Shown piece by piece: positions 23,828-64,000 of a stretch of DNA of 64,000 nucleotides. The stretch comes from Fragilaria crotonensis. Its lineage: Eukaryota; Bacillariophyta; Fragilariophyceae; Fragilariales; Fragilariaceae. The notes beneath the pieces were generated by a model that was given only the letters and a program-made list of their open reading frames with translations, did no database searches and was not told where the DNA came from. The position numbers and the translations under genes were made by a program. The stretch spans positions 25,798-89,797 of the forward strand of contig JAKSYS010000203.1 in assembly GCA_022925895.1 (NCBI GenBank). The letters run 5' to 3'. How positions within the stretch are numbered: position 1 is the first letter of the stretch; each line of letters starts with the position of its first letter.

Positions 23828-24352
23828 TTGTGTGGGTTCTCAACACTTTGTGTGCTCCACAACCTCTTCGTTCATATCACAGTGCAGAAATCTGGAGGGC
23901 TCCGGAGTTCGCATCTTCTCTTGTTGATGAATTGACACAACGAGACAACTGACGCCAACATCATGTGACTGCGACAATCCGAAGTACTGTACGGTAAGTA
24001 CGAGTACCTGGTTCGTGCGCACGGTAGACGGTACCAGTACTCCAGTACTGGGCAAAAAACAAAACCCTCCAGTGTCCAGTGTATATGTAGGACTTGACGT
24101 TTTTCTTACCCGTAGCGGTATGTTTGTATGCAGGTATTCTGCATATTCGGTTACTCCTTCTACTACGAGTACTAGACCTAGTAGCAAGTGGCAACGGTAG
24201 CCAAACGGCCGAACAAGCCACGCCTGAGCACGAGCAGTATATAATTGTGTGTAACAACTGATGCCAGTATCGGAGGTTGATCATTGTATGAAATCTTAAA
24301 AGTTATATTTATATATCAAACTTTCCGCCTGCCAAATAACAACCCATAATAT
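23828..24352. other. intergenic, GTAC-rich
   Basis: Promoter side of the plastid-protein gene; GTAC-rich 23985-24060. Towards 24330 it contains the leader segment AACAACC (24338-24344) that can pair with the trailer of the permuted tRNA. Confidence 0.5.
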
Positions 24353-24434
24353 TCGAATGGTCACGTGTTCGACTCACGTTTGGTGCTAAGATAGCTTGCA
24401 CTAATAGCTCAGTGGTAGAGCGTTCGATTGCAGA
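24353..24434 (+). tRNA. circularly permuted tRNA-Cys (GCA)
   Basis: The 3' half lies upstream of the 5' half. 3' half 24353-24387: anticodon-stem strand TCGAA, variable TGGTC, T arm ACGTG/TTCGACT/CACGT, acceptor TTGGTGC, discriminator T. A 10-nt linker (24388-24397) follows, then the 5' half 24398-24434: acceptor GCACTAA, TA, D arm GCTC/AGTGGTA/GAGC, G26, TTCGA and loop TTGCAGA with anticodon GCA. All four stems form; acceptor has one G-T pair. U73 is the tRNA-Cys discriminator. The promoter boxes are also permuted: B box GTTCGACTC (24367-24375) before A box TAGCTCAGTGG (24405-24415), with a Pol III T5 terminator at 24444-24448. Leader AACAACC (24338-24344) pairs 6 of 7 with trailer GGATGTT (24435-24441), as expected for the splicing helix. 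Confidence 0.8.
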
Positions 24435-25536
24435 GGATGTTTCTTTTTCGCTTTTGCAGTTTGCATGTGTGAAATTGGCCGTGAGATAGTTTGCACTAAT
24501 AGCTCAGTGGTAGAGCGTTCGATTCAAGACGGTGTCTCTTCTTCTCCACTTTCACAGGTGTGAAGTTGGTGGTATAGGGTTCGATTGTAGAGGATATTTC
24601 TTTTTCACTCTTAAGAGCATTCGAGTGCAGAGGATGTTTCTTTTTCACTTTTGCAGGTGTGAAGTTGGCGGTGAGGTAGCCTGCACTAAGAGCATGTCTT
24701 ATCATGGGGTACAAAAATTCCATGGATGTACCTGGGGGTAGATCGATGTACCCTTCCAAAAACTTCACAAAATATGCAATTCTTATCGTGTGGTCTTGTA
24801 CACGATTTATTTTCCATATCCATACATTAATATATCCTATGTCGCTATGTCTTGTCTTGCGTGTACATATTGTAATCTACATACTGAATATTTTATATGC
24901 GTGTAATGACAATTCGAGTGATCCTTGTTGTTGTTGACGAAAGCCACGAAGGCAATGACGTCTGGAATGACGACACGGACTCGATGGCTGAGTTCGTGGC
25001 GAGCGTAGAAATGCTGGGAAGGCCTCTTCCTTGTGCGGGAGTTCGGGGCAAGTGTCGAAACAATGCAATGGCAGCATCTTGGCAAGTTGTTGGTGGAGTT
25101 GTTGCTGTTGGAGGCGCTGCCATGAGCCATTGTTGAGCAATTCTCACATGTTTTATCGTGTATGACAACACAAGGAACAGGTACGGAAATGTGGTGAAAC
25201 GTGACAAAAGGTCACTGCACATCACCACTGGAGTCTTGCAACAGTAGTGTACCTAGGTAGATGAGGGGGGGTCAGATTTTCAAAATCTGACCCAGGTACG
25301 TCAGGGGGGTACATCATCTGACCCCCCCCAATTCGATGTACCCCCCTTCATAAGAATTGCTTTTTTCGACGAAAATCGAAAATTCGGCGGGATGTACCCG
25401 ATGATAAGACATGCTCTAATAGCTTAGTGGTAGAGCGTTCGATTGCAGAGGGTGCTTATTCTCCACTTTTACAGGTGTGAAGTTGGTGGTGAGTTAGCTT
25501 GCACTTAAAGCTCAGTGTAGAGCGTTCGATTGCAGT
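24435..25536 (+). repeat. degenerate tandem array of tRNA-Cys 5'-half units
   Basis: Downstream of the permuted tRNA the segment acceptor + D arm + anticodon strand (GCACTAATAGCTCAGTGGTA) is repeated in units of roughly 95 bp: 24493-24525 (loop changed to TTCAAGA), fragments around 24583 and 24625, one unit split by a MITE (24683-24689 plus 25420-25452), and 25501-25535. Between them are near-identical linkers with TTTCTTTTTC and GCAGGTGTGAAGTTGG. Later copies lack a complete T arm, so they do not form a tRNA alone. Confidence 0.75.
24690..25416. mobile_element. PIF/Harbinger-like MITE, 727 bp, TSD TAA, inserted in the tRNA-derived array
   Basis: Terminal inverted repeats: left GAGCATGTCTTATCATGGGG, right (minus) GAGCATGTCTTATCATCGGG. 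TAA at 24687-24689 and 25417-25419. Removing the element and one TAA restores GCAC-TAA-TAGCTTAGTGG, matching the uninterrupted array units GCAC-TAA-TAGCTCAGTGG. Inside are palindromic GTCAGATTTT/AAAATCTGAC blocks at 25270-25330. No transposase. Same family as the element at 30516-31188. Confidence 0.9.
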
Positions 25537-52094: not shown

Positions 52095-52998
52095 TGATAG
52101 ATTCTGCGTGCGAGCGCGGAGTGGAGGCCAGACCATGGTTAAATCGGGCGCACGCCAGACCGGGGTCGCAGGCAGGTGGTGACGTCACGGTGACGGTATC
52201 GGTCGCTACAGTACGAACGTTGGCCGGTGCTACGGTTTCAGGACTACTGGATGCTACGCTAGCGGCAGAGGAAGCGGGAGTGCTAGTAGCAAACGCGACA
52301 GTATACGCGTGGGAGTCTACTGGACGGGTATACTGAGCTACGGTATGACTAGGCGTAACTACAGTACATGTAGACGTAGACACAGTGCTAGTAGGCGAAG
52401 CAACTGTGCTAGTATCTGTAGGTACGATGCAAGTAGATGGTGCTACGTTGCGCGTAGGTGACACTACAGTATGTGGACGTGGGTGGAGTCCTACGGTGAC
52501 GTCGGTAGCCAAGTGGGTACTAGTACACTGGCTATCGCTACAGGGGGACTGAACCGTGACGACGGCGGGTAAAAAGTCGTCATGGTCAGTTACGCTGCTA
52601 CGAAAATTGTACATTGTTAAAATCGGGGGCCGGCTAAATATATTTACAGTGGTAGACAAATTTGTGAGAAAATCGTTGATCACAAGTGAGTGATCAACTT
52701 CGTTTGATGAGTGTTTCTGAGGAACACTCAGGAACACAAATGAAACGGTGCACGTCTGAAGAGTGCACGTCTGAAAAGGTGTACGTCTGAAGAGGTCGTA
52801 CGAGGCCGAGCGTTGGGCGAGAAAATGGTCGTTTATGCAACGAACGACATGAATTTGATCGTTGCAATTTTGGAGTGGGATATGATTCCCGTACGACAGT
52901 AACGATACGACGTATACTGTTTACTAGCCTAATGTGAAGTGTCGTACTGAATAATGTAGATAGTAAAAATACGTAGGAGCGGTACTAAAAGTCTGTCA
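52095..52998 (-). repeat. 3' LTR, 904 bp
   Basis: TG...CA ends, direct repeat of 63101-63995. Contains TGACGTCA at 52180-52187 and a degenerate minisatellite of GCTACGGT-like words at about 20-30 bp spacing (52205-52500). Confidence 0.95.
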
Positions 52999-53006
52999 CC
53001 CCTCTT
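52999..53006 (-). other. polypurine tract
   Basis: AAGAGGGG in minus sense, immediately upstream of the 3' LTR; the primer for plus-strand DNA synthesis. Confidence 0.75.
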
Positions 53007-53009
53007 GAA

Positions 53010-53627
53010 TCAGATCTCCGTAGAAATTGGTGATGGAGAAAGTAGGTGATCAGGGAGTTTGCAAAAGATTTTGTCAAGGTGAGGATCAATCTTGGAGGAT
53101 GTCTGAGTTTTGGTTAGGATGTCAGCAAGTTGAGAGTCACAAGGGATCCAATAGAGTTGATGAGTACCATCTTGTTGGCCTTGGCGGACAAAGTGAAAGC
53201 GTCTTTCAATGTGGCGAGTTTTGCGAGTTAGTTTGCCATTCTTGGCAATTTGAACAGTTGCTTCATTGTCAATCATAAGGACAGATGGGATTGTAGGTAA
53301 GCGTTGGGATGATTCGCGCCATTGTTTAGTGCCAAGGTATGTCATATCATATAAAAGCATTCTGATGTGGGCAGTAGCCATAGTTGCAGAACAGGCTGCC
53401 ATGTATTCAGCTTCAGAGGTTGACATTGCAATTGGGGTAGGCATTGTTGAGTTGGCTTCAATGAGGGCACCATTGTGAAAGATCATGTATCCAACAGTTG
53501 ATCTGCCAGTGTCAGGGCAATCTTGCCAGCTGGCATCAGAGAAGACAGTCAGGTCAGAGTATGGAATGCTGTGTTGGGCACAGATACTATAGATTGGGTT
53601 AGAGGTGCCATCAGGATAGAATTTCAA
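53010..53627 (-). CDS. copia RNase H domain
   Basis: Ty1/copia RNase H, 205 codons to the stop near the PPT. Visible: VFSDASWQDCPDTGRSTVGY (first catalytic Asp), SEAEYMAACSA (Glu), LMIDNEATVQIAKN (Asp), TRHIERRFHFVRQ and LADILTKTQ at the C-terminus. The upstream link to RT is broken by a frame change near 53630-53815. Confidence 0.88.
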   Translation of the reverse strand: MKFYPDGTSNPIYSICAQHSIPYSDLTVFSDASWQDCPDTGRSTVGYMIFHNGALIEANSTMPTPIAMSTSEAEYMAACSATMATAHIRMLLYDMTYLGTKQWRESSQRLPTIPSVLMIDNEATVQIAKNGKLTRKTRHIERRFHFVRQGQQDGTHQLYWIPCDSQLADILTKTQTSSKIDPHLDKIFCKLPDHLLSPSPISTEI

Positions 53628-53814
53628 AGCATAGCTGGGTCGGCGTCTGAGATAGCCAAATAACCAGATAAGGGCGCGGAAGTCAAGTTCACCGGGGCAG
53701 ATGCAGGCTTTGCAAGTTTGCAGACTGCAAAAGGATATCGGCGTGTGTTATATGCTAGATAAAGTAGGGTGCATACGGCTGAGCGAAACGGGAGGCGGGA
53801 ATGTCTTTTCTCAA

Positions 53815-54680
53815 TTATAGACTTGTCATGATCGGTGACAGGACGGTTATCTTTGGTGAAGACGTAATCGGGTGGGAAGGGAGTTTCGCGTTCAGGGAAT
53901 TCGAATCTGGGTCATAACGTTGGAGAGCGTTTAAGACATAACGGTGTTGGTCTAGAGTGTAAGTGGAATCTTTGTGGCGGTGGATGCGCATTTGCAGGAA
54001 CCATTGTGCAGGACCAAGGAATTTCACGTCAAAGCGGTTGCGGACGGAATCTTCGAAAGATTTCTCGATGGAATCGTTGCTTCCAACATAAAGCATGTCA
54101 TCGACGAAGAATAGGAGGCGAAGCCATTGGTTATGTTTATCATAGTAAACAAAATAGGATGGTTCTGCTTGGGATTGAATGAATCCTTGAGAGTATAGCC
54201 ATTCAGAGAATTCAATGTTCCAATATTTGCCTGAGTAGACAAGACCATAGATTCCTTTGTCAAGAAGAAGTGGGACTCCAAAGTATTTGGCATATTCTGG
54301 GAAGTGGTAAGCAAGGTAAAGTGGCAGGATCACAAAGTGACGTCCAATAACTTTGGCTTGAAGATAGGCTCCAATGAAGTCAGCACCTTTAAGGATGCGG
54401 CGGAAAGCACAGGTTTTGGATATGAGGAGCTTGACCCCTCTTGAAGATGCACAGGGTGACCATGTGTCTTCAAAAGGTTGAGGATCTCAATTGGGATAGT
54501 GTTAGACTTATTAACTTTCTTGGTGTTCTCTTCTCTTTGTTTAAGTAGTTGCTGGTACTTTGCTTTTGTTTTCTTGATTCTTCTTTTCCATGTCGCCGCG
54601 GGCAACAAGGCGGGCTTTGAGTTTGTCAAGTTTGCCAGATGCTGTTTGCTTTGCTTTGAGCACAAGTTTAACTGGGATAA
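53815..54680 (-). pseudogene. copia reverse transcriptase domain, frameshifted
   Basis: Palm and fingers of RT over at least two frames. From 54333 downward: LPLYLAYHFPEYAKYFG, LLLDKGIYGLVYSGKYWN, catalytic FVDDMLYVGS (YVDD variant) and WFLQMRIHRHKDSTYTLDQH. The upstream part (54330-54680) has KLDKLKARLVARGDMEKK in one frame, then in another GADFIGAYLQAK with the first catalytic Asp. Frame changes near 54340 and 54560. Confidence 0.8.
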
Positions 54681-54689
54681 TCAATTCAT

Positions 54690-55695
54690 CTACATGGGTT
54701 TCTGGCCAAGGATGAAGGTACCATGATCAATGAGGTTCTTGATTTCCATTTTGATTGCATGAAGCCAGGCAGAGCGGATGTCATCATCAAGTTTGAGGAC
54801 AGCTTGAAAGGATTGGGGTTCTGGCAAGTATTTATCAACAGGATCATCATTTTCTGTGGATGAGTCAGCAGAGGCATCAAGGGCAAGCATAGCAGTGTGG
54901 ATAGGGTCAATGGATGGTGGTGATTCAGCACATTCTTGGAAGTAAAGTGTCATCTCTTTCTGAAGGGGTGTGTGTCTCTTCTGGTGATGAGTGAGGTTGA
55001 GCAATTGAGGTGCAGGTGGTGTTGGACCAGGTTGTAGATCATCATCATCAGTGTCATCATCATTGTCAATAGTCTCAGTAGGAGGGGGGTGCTTATCATT
55101 GTTAGTGGGTTCTTCAATGAAGGAAGAGGGATTGATTCCAAGGTTGGCAACAGATCCAGTTTGGTGAATGATGGTGGGTTCAGAATTCTCAACATTTTCA
55201 AGTCCATTAGGGTCCATGTGGGAGCGGATGGGAATGGCTCCAGCAAAGGGTTTGGAGTCAAAAGCAAGGGCAGAGCTGAAATCTTCATCAAAATAAGCGT
55301 CACGGGTTGTGATAATTCGTTGAGGATGGTCTGGGGAATAGACAAGCCAGCCAGCAGAGTTTTCAGGGAATCCAATAAAGTTCCACGGGATGCGTTGGAG
55401 CTGTTGTTTATAAGTGATTAACTTGTTTCGAAAGGTCGGTTCGTAACGTTTGAAATAGACTGGGCATCCAATACGCGGAAGTTGATGAGGCTGGGTTTTC
55501 GCCATAACTATAGTGGAAGGGAGTTGTAGGATTTCCATCTTGATCAGTAACATTCTTTGCAGGGCAAGCATTGACAATTTGGACTGCATAGGCATGAGCA
55601 TGGTGAAAGAAGGCACCTCCAAGTCTGGCAGTGTTGAGCAGAGTGTTTGCAATGTTGTGGACTTCTCTCCATTTGGCTTCACAAATTCCATTCAT
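54690..55695 (-). pseudogene. copia integrase C-terminal part and linker, frameshifted
   Basis: The frame to 55408 has the integrase core end: EMNGICEAKWREVHNIANTL, LGGAFFHHAHAYAVQIVNAC, PFHYSYGENP. After a frame change near 55480 follows LPRIGCPVYFKRYEPTFRNK, GWLVYSPDHPQRIITTRDAY and a long acidic linker. The same frame ends in AWLHAIKMEIKNLIDHGTF, the start of the RT region. Confidence 0.8.
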
Positions 55696-55902
55696 TTCTT
55701 GATGTTCAGGGGCTGCAGCTTCAACTTTGATTCCAAGATTGGTGCAAGTTGAGATGAATTTGGCGAAGTAAATGCTGTTCCAGCATCAGTGCGGATAAAG
55801 CGGACAGATTGGGTGCGTCCAAGAAGTTCTGATTGTGTGAGCCAAGATTGCAGTGCAGTGAGAATGGATAAGTGCTTTCAGTGGGTAGTCCAATCCAACC
55901 AG

Positions 55903-57351
55903 TTAGTTTGCCAGGGTTGTCACAATGAAAAGGTAAGCAGAATAGTTAGTGCTAGTTGTCAGGCCAAAGCGGAATGGGTTTCTTAGAAGGTCAAGGTGAA
56001 GTTGATGGAATGGTTCTGAACCTTGGCGGAGTGGGACTTTGCTTCTGGCGCGTTTTTGGCTGATTGAAATTCTGATTGGCCAAGTTTGAGTGTCAGTGGC
56101 TGGTGACAAAATGTGATCATTCCAAACATGGTGAAGGGATCCAGTCATAAGATTGCGGAAATTACGATGTGCAAGGCGACGGGATGTGATCTCAAGTGGC
56201 AAGGTTGCAGTGGGTTGGTCTGGGTTTGGATTGGTTGAAGTGTCCAAGTGTTGCTCAAAAGTGATGGCAGGTGAGTTTGAAGTGTCATCAGAAGTTGTGT
56301 TGGGTTGGGAAGTCATGGAGAAAGCTTGTTCAGAGGGTAGCTCTTGAAGGATGGTTGGCCATGTGTATGTTGAGTTGTTGGGAAAACGGATTGTGGTTGC
56401 TCTGTTCTGGATGATGACTGTGAAGTTTTGGGTGGCAGAAATGGCAGTCAGGGAAAGCAGACGGTGGCTAAGACCTTCAATGTAGTAAACATCAGCAAGA
56501 CCAAGGATAGCTTTCTGTCCTTCTGTGGTTGTAAAGAAACAGTCAGTTGTGCCTTTGAAAGTGGATATCTTGGTGGTTCCATCAGCAAGGGAAACAGGTA
56601 CATGGCAGGGTTCAACATCATGGAGATCACTGAAGACAGGAGTGTAGTGACTTGTGGCACCACTGTCAGGGAGCCAATTATCAAGATCTGGTGGTCCAAA
56701 GCGCTGATATGCAGACATGGGATCATCTGGAAAGTATTCAATTGCATCAGTGCTGGGAGGTGAGTGTGACATGGAGGGTACAAAATCATTGTCAGTCAAA
56801 GATGGGTTGATTTCCATTTGAGGCAAGTTGGTATCAGGCCAGATTGTTGGTGGTCCATTGTTAAAAACAGGGTTGTTGTTTGATGAGGCAAGGAAGGCTT
56901 GATGGTAATGAGTTGTTTCAGCAGGAGGTGAAGATGAATCAGTGACAAAATAAGCTCTGTGATTTCTGGGAGCAGTGTTCTCATTATTGGTTGGTGATCT
57001 TGGGTTTCCTCCATTTCTGTTATTGGTGTTCTGAGGTCTGTTGGTTGCAGTTGGGCATTGTCTTGCATAGTGACCAGTTCTTCCACAATTGTTGCAAACA
57101 ATGTTGGTAGCATTATTGGGTGAAGGATTTTGCCGAAATGGGGTGGAATTGCTCTGCGGTCGACGTTGGTTATTGGAATTTGATGAGGTTGGTCGCAAGG
57201 GCGGTCGGTTGCCATGATTCGATCTAGGTGGCGGAGCGTTGCGACGATTGTTTTGGTGATTGTTCGGACGGTTTGAATGCTGATTTTGGTTGCTCTGGGG
57301 TCTGATTGGTGGCCGATTGCTGCTGCTGTTTTGTTGGGTATAAGGTCGCAA
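55903..57351 (-). CDS. zinc knuckle, aspartic protease and integrase start
   Basis: 482 codons. Gln/Asn/Arg-rich start, then a CCHC zinc knuckle CNNCGRTGHYARQC, the aspartic protease site WLPDSGATSHYTPVFSD, the GAG-pre-integrase motif RRLAHRNFRNLMTG, and the integrase start HLDLLRNPF containing the first catalytic Asp. Ends at a stop within integrase; the following part lies in another frame (55730-55900). Confidence 0.87.
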   Translation of the reverse strand: MRPYTQQNSSSNRPPIRPQSNQNQHSNRPNNHQNNRRNAPPPRSNHGNRPPLRPTSSNSNNQRRPQSNSTPFRQNPSPNNATNIVCNNCGRTGHYARQCPTATNRPQNTNNRNGGNPRSPTNNENTAPRNHRAYFVTDSSSPPAETTHYHQAFLASSNNNPVFNNGPPTIWPDTNLPQMEINPSLTDNDFVPSMSHSPPSTDAIEYFPDDPMSAYQRFGPPDLDNWLPDSGATSHYTPVFSDLHDVEPCHVPVSLADGTTKISTFKGTTDCFFTTTEGQKAILGLADVYYIEGLSHRLLSLTAISATQNFTVIIQNRATTIRFPNNSTYTWPTILQELPSEQAFSMTSQPNTTSDDTSNSPAITFEQHLDTSTNPNPDQPTATLPLEITSRRLAHRNFRNLMTGSLHHVWNDHILSPATDTQTWPIRISISQKRARSKVPLRQGSEPFHQLHLDLLRNPFRFGLTTSTNYSAYLFIVTTLAN

Positions 57352-57484
57352 AATTGAGCTGAGAGCTTGATGTTGTCGCGGGTGAATTGTTTCTGGAAAG
57401 TCGGACGATGGGTAGGACGATGGAATTGTTGACGGGCAGCATTGGCATGTTGGTTATAATTGCGTTGATTTTGTGATGGCAAAG

Positions 57485-58966
57485 TTAGGCCACGGATTCG
57501 TCAATATTCAAAAGATGGCTTTCAAGTTCGGACGGGCAATTCTTCATCGTTAAGTTCGGCTCTGCGGAGGTCGGCATCAAAACGTTGGTAAGAGGCAGCA
57601 TAAAAATGGTGATTACTTCCACCGCGAATGGCTCTTTAATAAGATCTGCGTCAGTATTGGGAATGCCGGCGTGGTAGCAATCGCGCGTCAAAACTCGGAT
57701 GCGATTCAAATAGGAGGTTGCAACTTCATTGTGGCCTTGTTTGATTGAATAAAAGGCTTCTCTTGTGCGTTCAACATGATCTGGAGTAAGCGGGGCACAA
57801 TGTCGGCGGAGAGTAAAGATTGCAGTTCTGGCATCTGGTGGGCCATCAATAATGTGTTTCTGGCAAGGGTCACAAACATGTGTAAAGATTAGGTTGTAAA
57901 TTGCAGTGCCAATGAAGGGATGGGAGTAGGAAATCTGTTTGGGCCAAAGATCAAAGACTTGGCGTGTCCAGGGAGAGATGTTACAAACGATGCGGAGGTT
58001 ATCCATGAAGGCATTGAATTGTCGGCGTCGGGCGACAAGATCGGTTGGATAAGAAAGTTTGCGGAGATTGGCATTTTTGGCATATTTCAAAAGGGTTTTA
58101 GTTAAATCTTCAATGGGTGGATAAGTGAAGTCAGTTCTGGTTGAAGAAGTTAGTGCATCTGGGGATTGCAAAGGGATCTGAGGAGGGTCATCCTGTTGGT
58201 CTTCATTGTCTTCATCATCAGTAAAGAATGTTTCATGAATTGGAGGATAGGCAAAAGTTGGATGTTTTGCAGGTTTGTCCTTTGCTGCAGGTTTGGAGGG
58301 GTTGTCTGTCTTTGGTGAAGAGGATGTTTCAATTTGGGTGTCTGGTTGCACAGATTTTGGTGACAGAATTTGTGTTACAGTTCGTGAAAGGCGTTTCAAA
58401 GGGTTTTCGGCAGGTGTGTCAATTTCTTGAGCTTGGACGTCAGAAGATGGCTGATTTGCATCAATATTTGGCGTTTCGTGTCGGGAAATGTCAGTTTCGG
58501 AAGAATTGTCAGAAGTATCTGGATCTGCAGTTTCTGGTTCAATTTCAGGGGGATTTTCTTCTTGAAGAGACGATCTACGGGTGCGGACAACCATAAGGGC
58601 TGTGTGTTCACAAAAAGATGATTCTTGTTTGTCCAATTGAAATCTTACTACATTACAATTACTGCTGTCCATTCTTGTAGCATTTACACCAATGTGTCTG
58701 TACAGGCAAGAAGGATCAGGTAAGTTGCAAGTAGTAACCTGGTTGTTAAAGAGACTAGTGTTCACACCAGACTCACCAGGGGGGTTGCTCAAGATATTGG
58801 GTTCAGAGTCTTTGATGAAGGGATATTCAGGATGATTGTGTTGTTGCCAATAGTATGAAAATGGATTGTGAGTGATTTGAGACAATGGGTTGTTGAGGGC
58901 ATTCTCAAGGTGTGGGAGAGCCCAGGATCCATAAACATCGGTGGATCCACGTTTTGTAGTAATCAC
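57485..58966 (-). CDS. gag-like capsid region
   Basis: 493 codons open; the first codons read from GTG, so the true start is probably an internal Met (for example MVVRTRRSSLQEE). Acidic, Pro/Thr-rich N-terminal half, then a gag-type helical domain: RRRQFNAFMDNLRIVCNIS, PFIGTAIYNLIFTHVCDPC, ERTREAFYSIKQGHNEVATS and YLNRIRVLTRDCYHAG, as in copia gag. It overlaps the end of the 706-residue ORF by 4 bp in another frame. A stop separates it from the zinc-knuckle ORF. Confidence 0.78.
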   Translation of the reverse strand: MITTKRGSTDVYGSWALPHLENALNNPLSQITHNPFSYYWQQHNHPEYPFIKDSEPNILSNPPGESGVNTSLFNNQVTTCNLPDPSCLYRHIGVNATRMDSSNCNVVRFQLDKQESSFCEHTALMVVRTRRSSLQEENPPEIEPETADPDTSDNSSETDISRHETPNIDANQPSSDVQAQEIDTPAENPLKRLSRTVTQILSPKSVQPDTQIETSSSPKTDNPSKPAAKDKPAKHPTFAYPPIHETFFTDDEDNEDQQDDPPQIPLQSPDALTSSTRTDFTYPPIEDLTKTLLKYAKNANLRKLSYPTDLVARRRQFNAFMDNLRIVCNISPWTRQVFDLWPKQISYSHPFIGTAIYNLIFTHVCDPCQKHIIDGPPDARTAIFTLRRHCAPLTPDHVERTREAFYSIKQGHNEVATSYLNRIRVLTRDCYHAGIPNTDADLIKEPFAVEVITIFMLPLTNVLMPTSAEPNLTMKNCPSELESHLLNIDESVA

Positions 58967-61083
58967 TTGGATGAGGCGAGTTGCAGAGACAAGGGAATGG
59001 TTTTGGGATCATCAATGACATGATAAACAGGGTTTGGTTGGCGCCAAAGTTGGCTAGGATTGTTGGGGCAAGTCCAGGGATTGGCAGCATAACAGGTGTT
59101 CATTGGAATGCAAGCTTGGTCATTGAAAAGCTGTTGGACTGTTGTTGTTGTGTAAGGTTTGATGGTCCCATTGTGTTGGTGAAAGATGATTGGTTTGTTC
59201 TCCTTGTTGTAGATAATAGGGAAAATATGAGCACTGGGCAATGGGATAGGAAGCTCAGTTGGGGAGCCTGAAGTGTAAGAAGGAGTTGGTTGATGCTCTT
59301 GGATGTTGCCTTGGTAGATAAGGACTTTGGTTGGCAAGGGTGTTTGAGGTAGGACACATTGAGGGTCAGTGACATTGATGTTGGGAACAACTCTGAACAT
59401 GGTGTATTCATGATCTGGCAGGAAATCAATGGAATGGTTGATGGTATCTGTCTTGATGGGGTCAAAGTTGGACTTAAGGGTTGCATAATCACAGTTTCCA
59501 ATTGGGATGGTGAAGTTCTGAAGATCATTGGAAGTGAGCGGACGGCAGATGACAAAATTGACGGCAATAGCAGTGGCTTTTGAATCCATGATTGATAACT
59601 GTTCAGGTGTGGGTAATGTGGCCATTGGGAAGGCTGAGCAATTGTGATTCATGAGTAGATCAACAGGAGGAAGGGAACCAATGCAGATGTTTGAGGGTTG
59701 CAAATGTAAGTCATCTCCAGTTGTGAGTTTGGCAGTCAAAGTTGCATGTTGGCGAAGTGTTGCTGAGATTAAGACACGGGCAACATGGGAAGCAGATGGA
59801 GATATTCCAGTTGTAGGTTCTCCAAAACCGTTGACAAGCGGTGAATGAGTGAATGCAATGAGGGATGCAGAGTCCAAATGTGTAGGAGTTTGAATATGGC
59901 GAGTCCTGGTGCTGTCCAAAGTGATATCATAGGGACTGGGAGACAGTTGCTGATCTTGGAAGAATTTGATAACGAATCGCGGGACATCTCTGAAGTTACT
60001 TCGGTTCGGGAAAAGTCGTAGAGCGGTCGCAAACGTTGGGATATTGCGAATGATATCAGCAAGTTCAGGAGGTTGGTGAGGGCATGAAGATGTTTGTCCC
60101 TGAATATAAAGGTGGATGAGGTACATCATTTTGAAGGCATAAAGGATGGATAGGGAGCATTCATGTCCAAAGGATCCAGGTTCATAGTCACTCAAAAGGG
60201 ATACAAATAATGATGGGGTGCCATTGGTGAGTTGAGATCTGTGCTCAGAAGAAAGATTGTCCATGACCAAATTGGTTGTTCTGTTGAAAGTGTGTTGGAT
60301 GCATTGAATGAATTCCTCTTGATTGGGGTCTTTGTCAGATCCAGCAATTAAAATGGGATAAAGGTTGCACATCAGGTGGCGAAGATGTTCGGTCGTCAAG
60401 TCGCGAATGCATTGTTTGGTGACTGGATTTGACTGAATATAACGTAGGCAGAAGCTTGCAGCTGTGATACTTGAATCAACACATGTTGGAAGGTTGCACA
60501 TGGTGATTGGCCCATTGATGTCATCTTGAAGAGTTGCATCAGCATAGAAAAGAAGTGAGGCATGTGGATTGGTTCTGGAATCCAAATCAGAATGGTGTTG
60601 CAAGAAGGGGACATGATGGATTGGGTCCAAGACATTGTCTTCAGGGCAAGGGATGTGCAGTTTGTCAAGGCGATATGGAAGCTCCAAAGTTTCATCATCA
60701 TCAGATAGGTCAAGAAATGCTGTGATTCCAGTTGATGTGGAAAGGCAATCAAAGGTACTGTCATGGCTGCTGCTCAAATTGGAAAACAAGGGACTGAAAA
60801 GTTCTGAATTGAGACTGATTGCTGGAGATGGTGGTGCATCAAGATTCCTAGGTCCAGAGGTGTTGAAGGTTTTCAAATAATTGTCTCCAGATGGTTGTGT
60901 TCTGTTTCTGCTTGAGGGGGTTGAAGGGGTCTCAGTTTCATCATCATCAATTGAAATGGTGAATGGGATTGCAGCATTGATAGGTGGCTTGACATAAAAG
61001 GGTTGGCAACATTGATGGAGTTGCAAATTGCTTGGACTTGGTTGGGGTTGAGGCCTTGCTGGTCTTGGAATATTTTTCGTCAT
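58963..61083 (-). CDS. 706-residue orphan ORF upstream of gag
   Basis: Long intact ORF inside the retrotransposon but outside the standard copia layout. MTKNIPRPARPQPQPSPSN starts a Pro/Ser-rich disordered region (~130 residues) with acidic patches (ISIDDDETETPS), followed by a folded-looking part with FGHECSLSILYAFKMMYLIH, ALRLFPNRSNFRDVPRFVIK and FVICRPLTSNDLQNFTIPIG, and many His and Cys. No motif of env, helicase, transposase or integrase is visible. Function unknown. Intactness over 2.1 kb, in an element with broken pol frames, suggests a maintained protein. Confidence 0.72.
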   Translation of the reverse strand: MTKNIPRPARPQPQPSPSNLQLHQCCQPFYVKPPINAAIPFTISIDDDETETPSTPSSRNRTQPSGDNYLKTFNTSGPRNLDAPPSPAISLNSELFSPLFSNLSSSHDSTFDCLSTSTGITAFLDLSDDDETLELPYRLDKLHIPCPEDNVLDPIHHVPFLQHHSDLDSRTNPHASLLFYADATLQDDINGPITMCNLPTCVDSSITAASFCLRYIQSNPVTKQCIRDLTTEHLRHLMCNLYPILIAGSDKDPNQEEFIQCIQHTFNRTTNLVMDNLSSEHRSQLTNGTPSLFVSLLSDYEPGSFGHECSLSILYAFKMMYLIHLYIQGQTSSCPHQPPELADIIRNIPTFATALRLFPNRSNFRDVPRFVIKFFQDQQLSPSPYDITLDSTRTRHIQTPTHLDSASLIAFTHSPLVNGFGEPTTGISPSASHVARVLISATLRQHATLTAKLTTGDDLHLQPSNICIGSLPPVDLLMNHNCSAFPMATLPTPEQLSIMDSKATAIAVNFVICRPLTSNDLQNFTIPIGNCDYATLKSNFDPIKTDTINHSIDFLPDHEYTMFRVVPNINVTDPQCVLPQTPLPTKVLIYQGNIQEHQPTPSYTSGSPTELPIPLPSAHIFPIIYNKENKPIIFHQHNGTIKPYTTTTVQQLFNDQACIPMNTCYAANPWTCPNNPSQLWRQPNPVYHVIDDPKTIPLSLQLASSK

Positions 61084-61842
61084 TTTACATTTTTGGTAGC
61101 TTTTCTGGTTGTCATCCTGTCCATGAGAGTTAGGGAATCCAAAGTTTTAACTGTGAAGGAATCTGGGATAAATGAGCTGGTGTCTGTGCTGTCATCATTG
61201 TCTGAGGAATCTGGGACTGAGTAGGAGAGTTTTGAATCATTGGGAGTGCATCAAGTTGTTTTGAGATTCCTTTGTCGCCGTTGCTTTGTTCTTCAACTTC
61301 AACGTCAGCGGGAACTTTTGTGCTTTGGTGGGCAGTGTCTGATCGCGAACGGAAAGGCATAATTGTTTGGGACACGGGCAGTAGATGGAGAAGACACTTG
61401 AAGCATTAACTACGTCACTATCGTCGTCGTCATCGTCATCCATATCGTCATCGCGATAAATGTTGGTCGTGGAGCGCGCTGGAATGTCGTCAGACGCGTC
61501 AGTCATTTCGTCATCGTCCACGGGATCGCCGTTGTAATTAGGAACACGAGCATGGCCGTTAGGTTGGTCACGAATTGGACGTTGGTAATTAGGAGAGGGA
61601 CGTCAGAAGGCGGGGTTGGCGCGCGGACGGATAGGCGTGGGTAGGATTTCAAAACCGGTCGGACGCAAGATGACGTTTGCGTTATGGGGAAAAATATGGA
61701 CGGACGGGCTGCCAAATGTCGCAGCTGCAGTACTGAAAGAGATCTGTACGATCGTCGTAGAAAGGTCATTGGCAGTTCGGCGAGGGGTCCAATGTGTCCC
61801 AAGTCCAGGACTCTTGGGAGCTGATGGTGCGAATCACCACGA
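61084..61842 (-). other. frame-broken continuation of the first retrotransposon ORF
   Basis: Several open segments in alternating frames (for example 61237-61521 with DDDEMTDASDDIPARST and a poly-Asp run, and 61130-61375) look like one acidic protein interrupted by indels. The segment links the PIP-box ORF to the 706-residue ORF. Confidence 0.45.
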
Positions 61843-63006
61843 TCATGGTCGTGGTCGGAAATTGGGAAATGGGGTTCGCCATGGGGTCGTTTGAGCGGCG
61901 ATATCTCCGGATTGGTCGCTCCGATTTTCGTAAGTGGGAGCTCTTTTTGCAGGTCTTGGAGCGCCGGAGGAGTTTCTGACTTTACTTTTTGTCGTGTGAA
62001 GGTCCGAACGCCCAACGAAATTGATTTGTTGACTTCCACATTCACGAACATATTGGCGGGTTTTATAACGAATCTCTGGTTGTTTTTGCGTCTGAAAACG
62101 CATCCTTTTCAGGGAAGCATCAGGGGAAGAGGCAGGGACGTCTGAGTCATCGAATTGTCGCTTCCTGGTGGATTTTGGGCGGGTGGGGGCTGGAATCTTG
62201 CGGTCGTCGTCACTGCGAACGCTGTAGTCGTCATCTTGGTCGTCGTCGTCGACGTCGCTTTCGTCGAATAAGTCTGTCTGGGGTTGGTAGCTGCGAATAG
62301 GGGAAGGATGGTGAGTGCCCTGCATGTCTGGTGTGTACTCCTCTTTGATTCTCATGACTTTATGAGTGTTTGAGCGCTCTGCAGTCGCGCTATCGATGGC
62401 CTCGGCGTTGCTAGCCGCTTCATCGTTGTCGTCGTCGTCGGTTTCGGTGGCCCTGGTAGAATAATTGCGCCCAATAGGAGTAGTAAGGATGCCCTGGATG
62501 TATGGATGAGTCTTTTGGTTGTAGTTGGTGGCGCGGGAAGACTTGTTGTTGCGCTCGGAGTTGGCGTGTTCGATGGCCTCGGCGATGACGGCCGCTTCAT
62601 CGGTGTCGGATTCGTAGGTAGTGTTTGCAGCAGGTTTAGGAAGCTTCTTCTTTTTCATTGTAGTTTGTTGATTGCCCAGTTTGGCTCTCTTAGAGCGAGT
62701 TAGATAGAGGGTGGGATGGGTGGGCGTAGCGGCAGGAATGTTGACATCTGCGCTCATGACGACTGGAGGCTCCGTTTCGGAGGCAAGAAAGGGGGACGAG
62801 TCCTTCTTCTTCGACTTCTTGTCGGCTTTCGTAAGGTTGAAGCGAATGGTGGGCATGGTGGTTGGGGCTGAAATGCTGCTGAAAGGGCTGGGGCTGCTGT
62901 TAACTAAGTTCTTAAATATTTGTGTGCACTTTGAATCTGGGGGAGCTCTGTTGAAAAATTCTGTTATTTTCAGTTGCTTCAGATCTGACAGTTTAGATGG
63001 AAGCAT
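61843..63006 (-). CDS. first retrotransposon ORF with N-terminal PIP-box
   Basis: 387 codons, starting 94 bp inside the 5' LTR. The N-terminus MLPSKLSDLKQLKITEFFNR contains QLKITEFF (residues 11-18), an exact match to the PCNA-interacting-peptide consensus Qxx(I/L/M)xx(F/Y)(F/Y). Basic clusters KADKKSKKK and KRAKLGN follow (nuclear-localisation-like), then an internal duplication: YESDTDEAAVIAEAIEHA (131-148) and ETDDDDNDEAASNAEAIDSA (188-207). The rest is Arg/Ser-rich and disordered. No gag or enzyme domain. Probably a nucleic-acid-associated accessory protein. Confidence 0.72.
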   Translation of the reverse strand: MLPSKLSDLKQLKITEFFNRAPPDSKCTQIFKNLVNSSPSPFSSISAPTTMPTIRFNLTKADKKSKKKDSSPFLASETEPPVVMSADVNIPAATPTHPTLYLTRSKRAKLGNQQTTMKKKKLPKPAANTTYESDTDEAAVIAEAIEHANSERNNKSSRATNYNQKTHPYIQGILTTPIGRNYSTRATETDDDDNDEAASNAEAIDSATAERSNTHKVMRIKEEYTPDMQGTHHPSPIRSYQPQTDLFDESDVDDDDQDDDYSVRSDDDRKIPAPTRPKSTRKRQFDDSDVPASSPDASLKRMRFQTQKQPEIRYKTRQYVRECGSQQINFVGRSDLHTTKSKVRNSSGAPRPAKRAPTYENRSDQSGDIAAQTTPWRTPFPNFRPRP

Positions 63007-63080
63007 AACTGAATTCCTGAGCCTAACTAACCTGAAGGTATCAGAGTTAAAAGGGCAGAGGACGCCTGCCTAAGTCGGTT

Positions 63081-63100
63081 GATTCTAGGCGAGTGAACCA
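63081..63100 (-). other. primer binding site
   Basis: Begins TGG directly at the inner end of the 5' LTR (minus sense). The plus strand over these 20 bp ends CGAGTGAACCA and reads like a tRNA 3' end: T-loop end GATT, T-stem strand CTAGG, acceptor strand CGAGTGA, discriminator A and CCA. The tRNA is not identified; its 5' acceptor would be TCACTCG. Confidence 0.7.
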
Positions 63101-63995
63101 TGATAGATTCTGCGTGCGAGCGCGAGTGGAGGCCAGACCATGGTTAAATCGGGCGCACGCCAGACCGGGGTCGCAGGCAGGTGGTGACGTCACGGTGACG
63201 GTATCGGTCGCTACAGTACGAACGTTGGCCGGTGCTACGGTTTCAGGACTACTGGATGCTACGCTAGCGGCAGAGGAAGCGGGAGTGCTAGTAGCAAACG
63301 CGACGGTATACGCGTGGGAGTCTACTGGACGGGTATACTGAGCTACGGTATGACTAGGCGTAACTACAGTACATGTAGACGTAGACACAGTGCTAGTAGG
63401 CGAAGCAACTGTGCTAGTATCTGTAGGTACGATGCAAGTAGATGGTGCTACGTTGCGCGTAGGTGACACTACAGTATGTGGACGGGTGGAGTCCTACGGT
63501 GACGTCGGTAGCCAAGTGGGTACTAGTACACTGGCTATCGCTACAGGGGTGAACCGTGACGACGGCGGGTAAAAAGTCGTCATGGTCAGTTACGCTGCTA
63601 CGAAAATTGTACATTGTTAAAATCGGGGGCCGGCTAAATATATTTACAGTGGTAGACAAATTTGAGAGAAAATCGTTGATCACAAGTGAGTGATCAACTT
63701 CGTTTGATGAGTGTTTCTGAGGAACACTCAGGAACACAAATGAAACGGTGCACGTCTGAAGAGTGCACGTCTGAAAAGGTGTACGTCTGAAGAGGTCGTA
63801 CGAGGCCGAGCGTTGGGCGAGAAAATGATCGTTTATGCAATGAACGACATGAATTTGATCGTTGCAATTTTGAGTGGGATATGATTCCCGTACGACAGTA
63901 ACGATACGACGTATACTGTTTACTAGCCTAATGTGAAGTGTCGTACTGAATATGTAGACAGTAAAAATACGTAGGAGCGGTACTAAAGTCTGTCA
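63101..63995 (-). repeat. 5' LTR, 895 bp
   Basis: Direct repeat of the 3' LTR. Contains TGACGTCA at 63185-63192. Relative to the other LTR it lacks 9 bases in six places and has five substitutions. Confidence 0.95.
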
Positions 63996-64000
63996 CTATG

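Follow-up and report, generated by a model that had tools for sequence, protein, structure and literature searches.

Organisation of the tRNA-Cys(GCA) locus

The window, by which we mean the whole 64,000-nucleotide stretch of DNA analysed here, covers positions 25798-89797 of a Fragilaria crotonensis contig (C118); genome searches were made in an assembly of 62,107,879 bases in 881 contigs. The glutamine synthetase encoded in the window shares 99% identity with its F. crotonensis counterpart across 74% of the query, and for a protein on contig C726 the identity to F. crotonensis MHU86_24455 is 100% across 92% of the query. Read on the forward strand, nucleotides 24352-24433 of the window carry tRNA positions 38-73, a 10-nt linker and then positions 1-37. 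The features of this locus and of the sequence downstream of it are the following, in window coordinates:

24303-24316 (+): A/T-rich, TATA-like element TTATATTTATATAT, seen by eye, some 36-49 nt ahead of the 3′ half
24338-24344 (+): leader strand AACAACC, able to pair with the trailer at 6 of 7 positions
24349 (+): A at intron-like position -3, which can pair with U32 (24428), with 24350-24352 as a 3-nt bulge (evaluation of sequence and structure)
24352-24387 (+): tRNA-Cys 3′ half, positions 38-73, with the anticodon stem 3′ strand, variable loop, T arm/B box, acceptor 3′ strand and U73 (sequence, covariance model, ARAGORN)
24388-24397 (+): intervening sequence AAGATAGCTT, 10 nt, linking the tRNA 3′ end to the 5′ end (sequence; function suggested by PMC3978253)
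24398-24433 (+): tRNA-Cys 5′ half, positions 1-37, with the acceptor 5′ strand, D arm/A box and the anticodon GCA at 24430-24432 (sequence, covariance model, ARAGORN)
24435-24441 (+): trailer GGATGTT, able to pair with the leader strand at 6 of 7 positions
24444-24448 (+): T5 run, a putative RNA polymerase III-type terminator (sequence)
24484-24569 (+): extra unit 2, a 5′ half copy (24493-24529) in which the anticodon region reads TTCAAGA in place of TTGCAGA, without a 3′ half (sequence comparison, as for the units below)
24569-24612 (+): extra unit 3, a truncated 5′ half copy and trailer
24614-24679 (+): extra unit 4, a truncated 5′ half copy, trailer and spacer
24683-25500 (+): extra unit 5, a 5′ half copy whose acceptor stem is split by a transposable element
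24690-25416: transposable element in extra unit 5, 727 bp, with terminal inverted repeats GAGCATGTCTTATCAT and target duplication TAA
25492-25561 (+): extra unit 6, a 5′ half copy altered by substitutions and by a single D-loop deletion

In its unjoined genomic order the window sequence yielded 0 genes with ARAGORN and 0 Rfam matches at gathering score. When the halves are joined, ARAGORN reports tRNA-Cys(gca), in which the acceptor, D, anticodon and T stems are all complete (7/7, 4/4, 5/5 and 5/5 pairs) and nucleotide 73 is T, and all 12 of the pairs formed between the two halves are intact. The joined molecule also has U8, G18G19, U33, U54U55C56 and R15:Y48 (ARAGORN and reading of the sequence), consensus positions that are listed for permuted tRNAs in PMC3978253. 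An earlier sequence-only reading had described the genomic order as no tRNA and the joined halves as a cloverleaf with GCA anticodon and U73, and ARAGORN agrees on both points; that reading had also placed the B box before the A box and a T5 terminator downstream, and we find the B box in the upstream 3′ half, the A box in the downstream 5′ half and the T5 run at 24444-24448. A/T-rich stretches comparable to the element upstream of the 3′ half were seen by eye upstream of several ordinary nuclear tRNAs too. Folding energy is ordinary for the 82-nt locus (z -1.33; 21 of 200 shuffles equally good).

We built a covariance model (R1) from seven ordinary nuclear tRNAs (Phe, Arg, Asn, Lys, Ala, Thr and Trp), permuted in silico and given random linkers; the tRNA-Cys locus itself was absent from the training set. 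R1 gave this locus a score of 71.8 bits (E 3.2e-22 for the 64-kb window), and the three other matches in the window were two extra 5′ halves, at 23.4 and 19.4 bits, and noise at 7 bits.

An array of 5′ halves downstream

Downstream of the tRNA-Cys sequence lie five more copies, whole or partial, of a unit composed of linker, 5′ half and trailer, none of which has a 3′ half. Because each of them is damaged, we read these five 5′ halves as probable decayed duplicates. In the copy at 24493-24529 the place of the anticodon is taken by CAA, so that a tRNA made from this copy and the 3′ half would combine the body of tRNA-Cys with an anticodon for Leu; this is probably decay as well. The transposable element in unit 5 accounts for 28 further matches on 15 other contigs, which fall inside the element or at its edges and include one stretch, on contig C372, at 97% identity. 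With gaps left out, aligned bases are identical at 139 of 151 positions inside the 5′ half and at 164 of 203 outside it (Fisher p 0.0034, from copies that are not independent), which hints at past constraint or conversion.

The greater likeness of the 5′ half copies than of their surroundings, together with the presence of several 5′ halves for one 3′ half, could also be expected of a split tRNA, in which the 3′ half and one or more 5′ halves would be separate transcripts joined in trans. Against this, the intact halves lie just 10 nt apart with no T run between them in the sequence, and the extra 5′ halves are truncated, changed at the anticodon, cut by the transposon or without a D-loop base. 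We therefore regard a split tRNA as very improbable.

At the far end of the window, an LTR retrotransposon-like element occupies 52095-63996 on the minus strand, where a pair of direct repeats, each about 900 bp long and 98.5% identical to the other, flanks open reading frames, one of them with zinc knuckle and Pol_BBD domains. Strong GC skew coincides with this element.

Specificity of the model and a second permuted gene

The control set for R1 comprised 78 of 90 loci, the remaining 12 overlapping the two permuted loci described here. Across these 78 loci and the permuted genes, scores above 50 bits were obtained only at tRNA-Cys, at a tRNA-Ile (57.9 bits) and at two ordinary tRNA-Trp genes in tandem (60 bits), tRNA-Trp being a member of the training set; a plastid tRNA-Ile/tRNA-Ala pair scored 43.1 bits and all other control loci 34.6 bits or less. 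Since the tRNA-Trp pair scores 60 bits, R1 is unable to separate a permuted gene from neighbouring tandem tRNAs, and a high R1 score is by itself no proof of permutation. What separates the two is that the outer halves are missing. The 3′ half occurs a single time in the window and is not preceded there by any 5′ half, which rules out tandem ordinary tRNA genes at this locus. A genome search with the joined tRNA-Cys gave five matches, all at this locus (the two halves and three of the extra 5′ halves); a tRNA-derived dispersed repeat is thereby ruled out.

The tRNA-Ile matched by R1 is a second permuted gene, tRNA-Ile(UAU), on another contig (C726:13849-13928; 1516-1595 in the extracted region L077 and 4950-5029 in L082; E 3.7e-18). 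Its linker is 7 nt long, the acceptor stem forms 6 of 7 pairs, the exception being a T:T, the anticodon stem contains G:U pairs, and nucleotide 73 is A. The gene is followed by the T5 run CTTCTTTTTG. Upstream of it stands TTTAAATACCATAAAA, which by eye is nearly the same as the element TTTAAATATCATAAAA before an ordinary tRNA-Arg gene. The joined tRNA-Ile(UAU) query matched the genome twice, at its own halves, and no ordinary copy was found. The sequence-only reading had taken the first locus for a circularly permuted tRNA-Cys(GCA) gene; this remains the best reading, and the presence of a second permuted gene in the same genome strengthens it.

Two genes follow the permuted tRNA-Ile at a distance of about 1 kb: the first encodes a poly(A) polymerase head domain of the CCA-adding-enzyme kind (PF01743; L082 6048-8312, plus strand), the second a SpoU-type RNA methylase (PF00588; L082 8328-9266, minus strand). 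The position of two RNA-modifying enzymes beside this tRNA is possibly chance.

It was a genome search with the YrlA family (RF02553) that led to the permuted tRNA-Ile. Of 1468 candidates 46 were scored, with E values of up to 10 allowed, and four matches were reported: the tRNA-Cys locus first, C726:13834-13941 second (26.3 bits), and, third and fourth, the tRNA-Ile/tRNA-Ala pair in its two plastid copies. Because weak YrlA matches also occur in 13 of 14 control genomes, the search serves as a pointer and not as proof. It nevertheless raises the question of whether the tRNA-Cys locus encodes a non-coding RNA of the Y RNA-like (YrlA) type, which binds a Ro60-type protein and carries a tRNA-like domain in permuted order. 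The match covers 24333-24450 at 33.2 bits, but this is far under the gathering score of 69; the TROVE/Ro60 domain (PF05731) has 0 matches in the genome, the control search having found it in 1 of 14 genomes; and the GCA anticodon loop, U33 and U73 are all intact, which a Y RNA would presumably not need. A Y RNA is accordingly scarcely credible as an account of this locus.

Splice junction, leader and trailer

Both possible junctions, 37/38 and 38/39, give a cloverleaf, and ARAGORN calls tRNA-Cys(gca) either way. A38 is usual in tRNAs, and the U38 left by the 37/38 junction here counts against it. A pair between nucleotide 32 and intron position -3 is expected at eukaryotic tRNA splice sites. 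With a cut at 37/38, nucleotide 32 can pair with the third-last base of the leader, as U:A in tRNA-Cys and as C:G in tRNA-Ile, and in both genes the last two leader bases and nucleotide 38 would make up a 3-nt bulge. A junction motif resembling a bulge-helix-bulge, with the 3-nt bulge and the 32:-3 pair, is possible in both genes, with a central helix of 3 pairs only; bulge-helix-bulge motifs and their relaxed forms are described in PMC3978253. This geometry favours 37/38 (U38) over the 38/39 junction (A38) adopted earlier. Halves had been proposed at 24353-24387 and 24398-24434, and while the sequence is as described there, the splice geometry prefers 24352-24387 and 24398-24433.

A helix between leader and trailer had also been claimed as a requirement for splicing. 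The 6 of 7 pairing of the two strands is present, but it does not exceed chance: over four choices of length, the duplex energy compared with shuffles gave p 0.34-0.54 for tRNA-Cys and 0.04-0.35 for tRNA-Ile. As the tRNA-Cys duplex is no better than shuffles, the helix is no evidence by itself. Domains of the tRNA-splicing endonuclease are present in the genome, with two PF01974 matches above cut-off.

Search for an ordinary tRNA-Cys gene

An ordinary tRNA-Cys(GCA) gene elsewhere in the genome had been named as the observation that would speak against a permuted gene; we looked for one by several routes and found none in this assembly, which is 81% complete by BUSCO according to PMC9476933. 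The joined tRNA-Cys query found no ordinary copy in the assembly. The pattern GTAGAGC-N7-TGCANA had nine genome matches, two of them at this locus and the other seven without a tRNA by ARAGORN, and a looser pattern of D arm and anticodon had five, two here and three again without a tRNA. A human tRNA-Cys query gave four genome matches, all tRNA-Trp. A pattern running from the anticodon to the T arm, with up to two mismatches, gave 31 genome matches; the seven that keep TGCA are without a tRNA by ARAGORN, and the 24 without TGCA include known tRNA-Phe, tRNA-Trp and organelle tRNAs. No second haplotype of the tRNA-Cys locus was found in the genome search.

A tRNA family search of the genome scored 63 of 2258 candidates and is therefore not a full tRNA inventory. 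Two contigs, C880 and C881, carry organelle-type tRNA sets. Among the candidates scored, the mitochondrion-like region C880:69508-75687 has six equal-scoring tRNA matches at a spacing of 1.0-1.4 kb, two of them identical tRNA-Lys(TTT) genes, and matches close to one end of C880 recur close to the other, about 81.6 kb away, like an unclosed circle. The published draft of F. crotonensis SAG 28.96 comprises 879 nuclear contigs and 61.85 Mb, with tRNAs predicted using tRNAscan-SE (PMC9476933).

Given its level of completeness, an ordinary tRNA-Cys gene could be missing from the assembly, and it is here that a relic has to be considered: the locus would be the dead remnant of two ordinary tRNA-Cys genes in tandem, stripped of their outer halves, with the functional tRNA-Cys gene lying in an assembly gap. 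Tandem ordinary tRNA-Trp pairs do exist in this genome and score as highly with R1 as noted above, duplication and decay of the locus are evident from the five damaged 5′ halves, and the unassembled fraction leaves room for such a gene. A dead locus is harder to reconcile with 12 of 12 intact pairs between the halves, and yet damage to all five extra 5′ halves, or with the continued presence of the T5 run and the A/T-rich element. Moreover, tRNA-Ile(UAU) has the same architecture on a different contig, likewise with no ordinary copy found. We consider a relic unlikely.

Interpretation and proposed processing

Taken together, we interpret the locus as a nuclear, circularly permuted tRNA-Cys(GCA) gene of F. 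crotonensis, of type II with the junction at 37/38, and probably the sole cytosolic tRNA-Cys gene; on the sequence evidence we put the probability of this reading at roughly 0.9. RNA polymerase III would start downstream of the TATA-like element and stop at the T5 run, giving a precursor composed of leader, 3′ half, 10 nt, 5′ half and trailer, a single precursor being assumed by analogy with algae (PMC3978253). The halves could fold into the tRNA body, with the 10-nt loop closing the acceptor stem and the anticodon stem opening outward. The tRNA-splicing endonuclease would then cut after 37 and before 38, with loss of leader and trailer, and a ligase would join 37 to 38 to produce a circle, from which RNase P and tRNase Z would excise the 10-nt loop before the addition of CCA. 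Circle-based processing of permuted tRNAs has been measured in algae, as described in PMC3978253.

A broader proposal has three parts. The permuted genes would be the sole nuclear source of tRNA-Cys(GCA) and tRNA-Ile(UAU), so that all Cys codons and AUA rely on RNA circles; permuted tRNAs would be regular in diatom (stramenopile) genomes and missed by standard scans; and the 5′ half array, of a kind also known at the tRNA-Cys of Ostreococcus lucimarinus, would point to a recurrent route, or to a transfer from a green alga, that permutes just this tRNA. We judge the chances of this proposal as a whole to be about even.

Two permuted tRNAs in a diatom would extend the kind to stramenopiles. If the reading is correct, it suggests that standard scans may miss essential tRNAs in diatom genomes, and it predicts circular tRNA precursors in a widespread and culturable diatom. 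The decayed array of 5′ halves resembles the intermediate predicted by a duplication-and-loss model and offers another test of the origin of permutation.

Comparison with known permuted tRNA genes

By 2014, 34 permuted tRNA genes had been tabulated, from one red alga, four prasinophytes, one chlorarachniophyte nucleomorph and one archaeon (PMC3978253), which agrees with the earlier statement that such genes are established in Cyanidioschyzon and prasinophytes; Auxenochlorella is a later addition to the hosts (PMC12633428). The sequence-only reading had suggested that the gene may be new if the host is a diatom. The host is a diatom, and the literature searched, in the portions accessible, contained no report of permuted tRNA genes in a diatom or other stramenopile and nothing on diatom tRNA genes; this literature leaves out subscription papers and most preprints, and novelty is therefore unproved. 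The kind of gene is known and it is the diatom host lineage that seems to be new. When a second species was sought, the pattern of the tRNA 5′ half had 0 matches in viral_contigs and likewise 0 in genome_contigs, and no relatives of the neighbouring proteins were confirmed.

The bacterial YrlA RNA (RF02553) is alike in having a tRNA-like domain in permuted order and a closed acceptor-like hairpin (from reading of the alignment; the likeness to tRNA is given in PMC8394870). It differs in tethering a Ro60-type protein, none of which was found here, and the score of the locus is less than half the threshold set for the family.

Cyanidioschyzon merolae (Soma et al. 2007, related in PMC3978253) shares type II genes with a T stretch downstream. 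According to the same source, a TATA-like element lies upstream of most of its permuted genes, where here an A/T-rich element was seen by eye, and its type II intervening sequences are 7-31 nt long, compared with 10 nt in tRNA-Cys and 7 nt in tRNA-Ile. Four junction positions and no permuted Cys are tabulated for C. merolae in PMC3978253, whereas both genes described here fit 37/38.

The 10-nt linker of the diatom tRNA-Cys, with both halves on one strand and the 3′ half first, falls within the 1-74 nt range of intervening sequences in the permuted-tRNA table (PMC3978253). The closest counterparts are the permuted Cys(GCA) genes of O. lucimarinus, O. tauri and Micromonas pusilla (Maruyama et al. 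2010, cited from PMC3978253), which are alike in isoacceptor, 37/38 junction and short intervening sequence. Compared by tabulated description, the gene reported here differs from these three prasinophyte genes in its diatom host and in its intervening sequence of 10 nt, as against 12, 26 and 38 nt (PMC3978253 Table 1). The permuted tRNA-Cys of O. lucimarinus has an additional 5′ half downstream (PMC3978253), and that of F. crotonensis has five.
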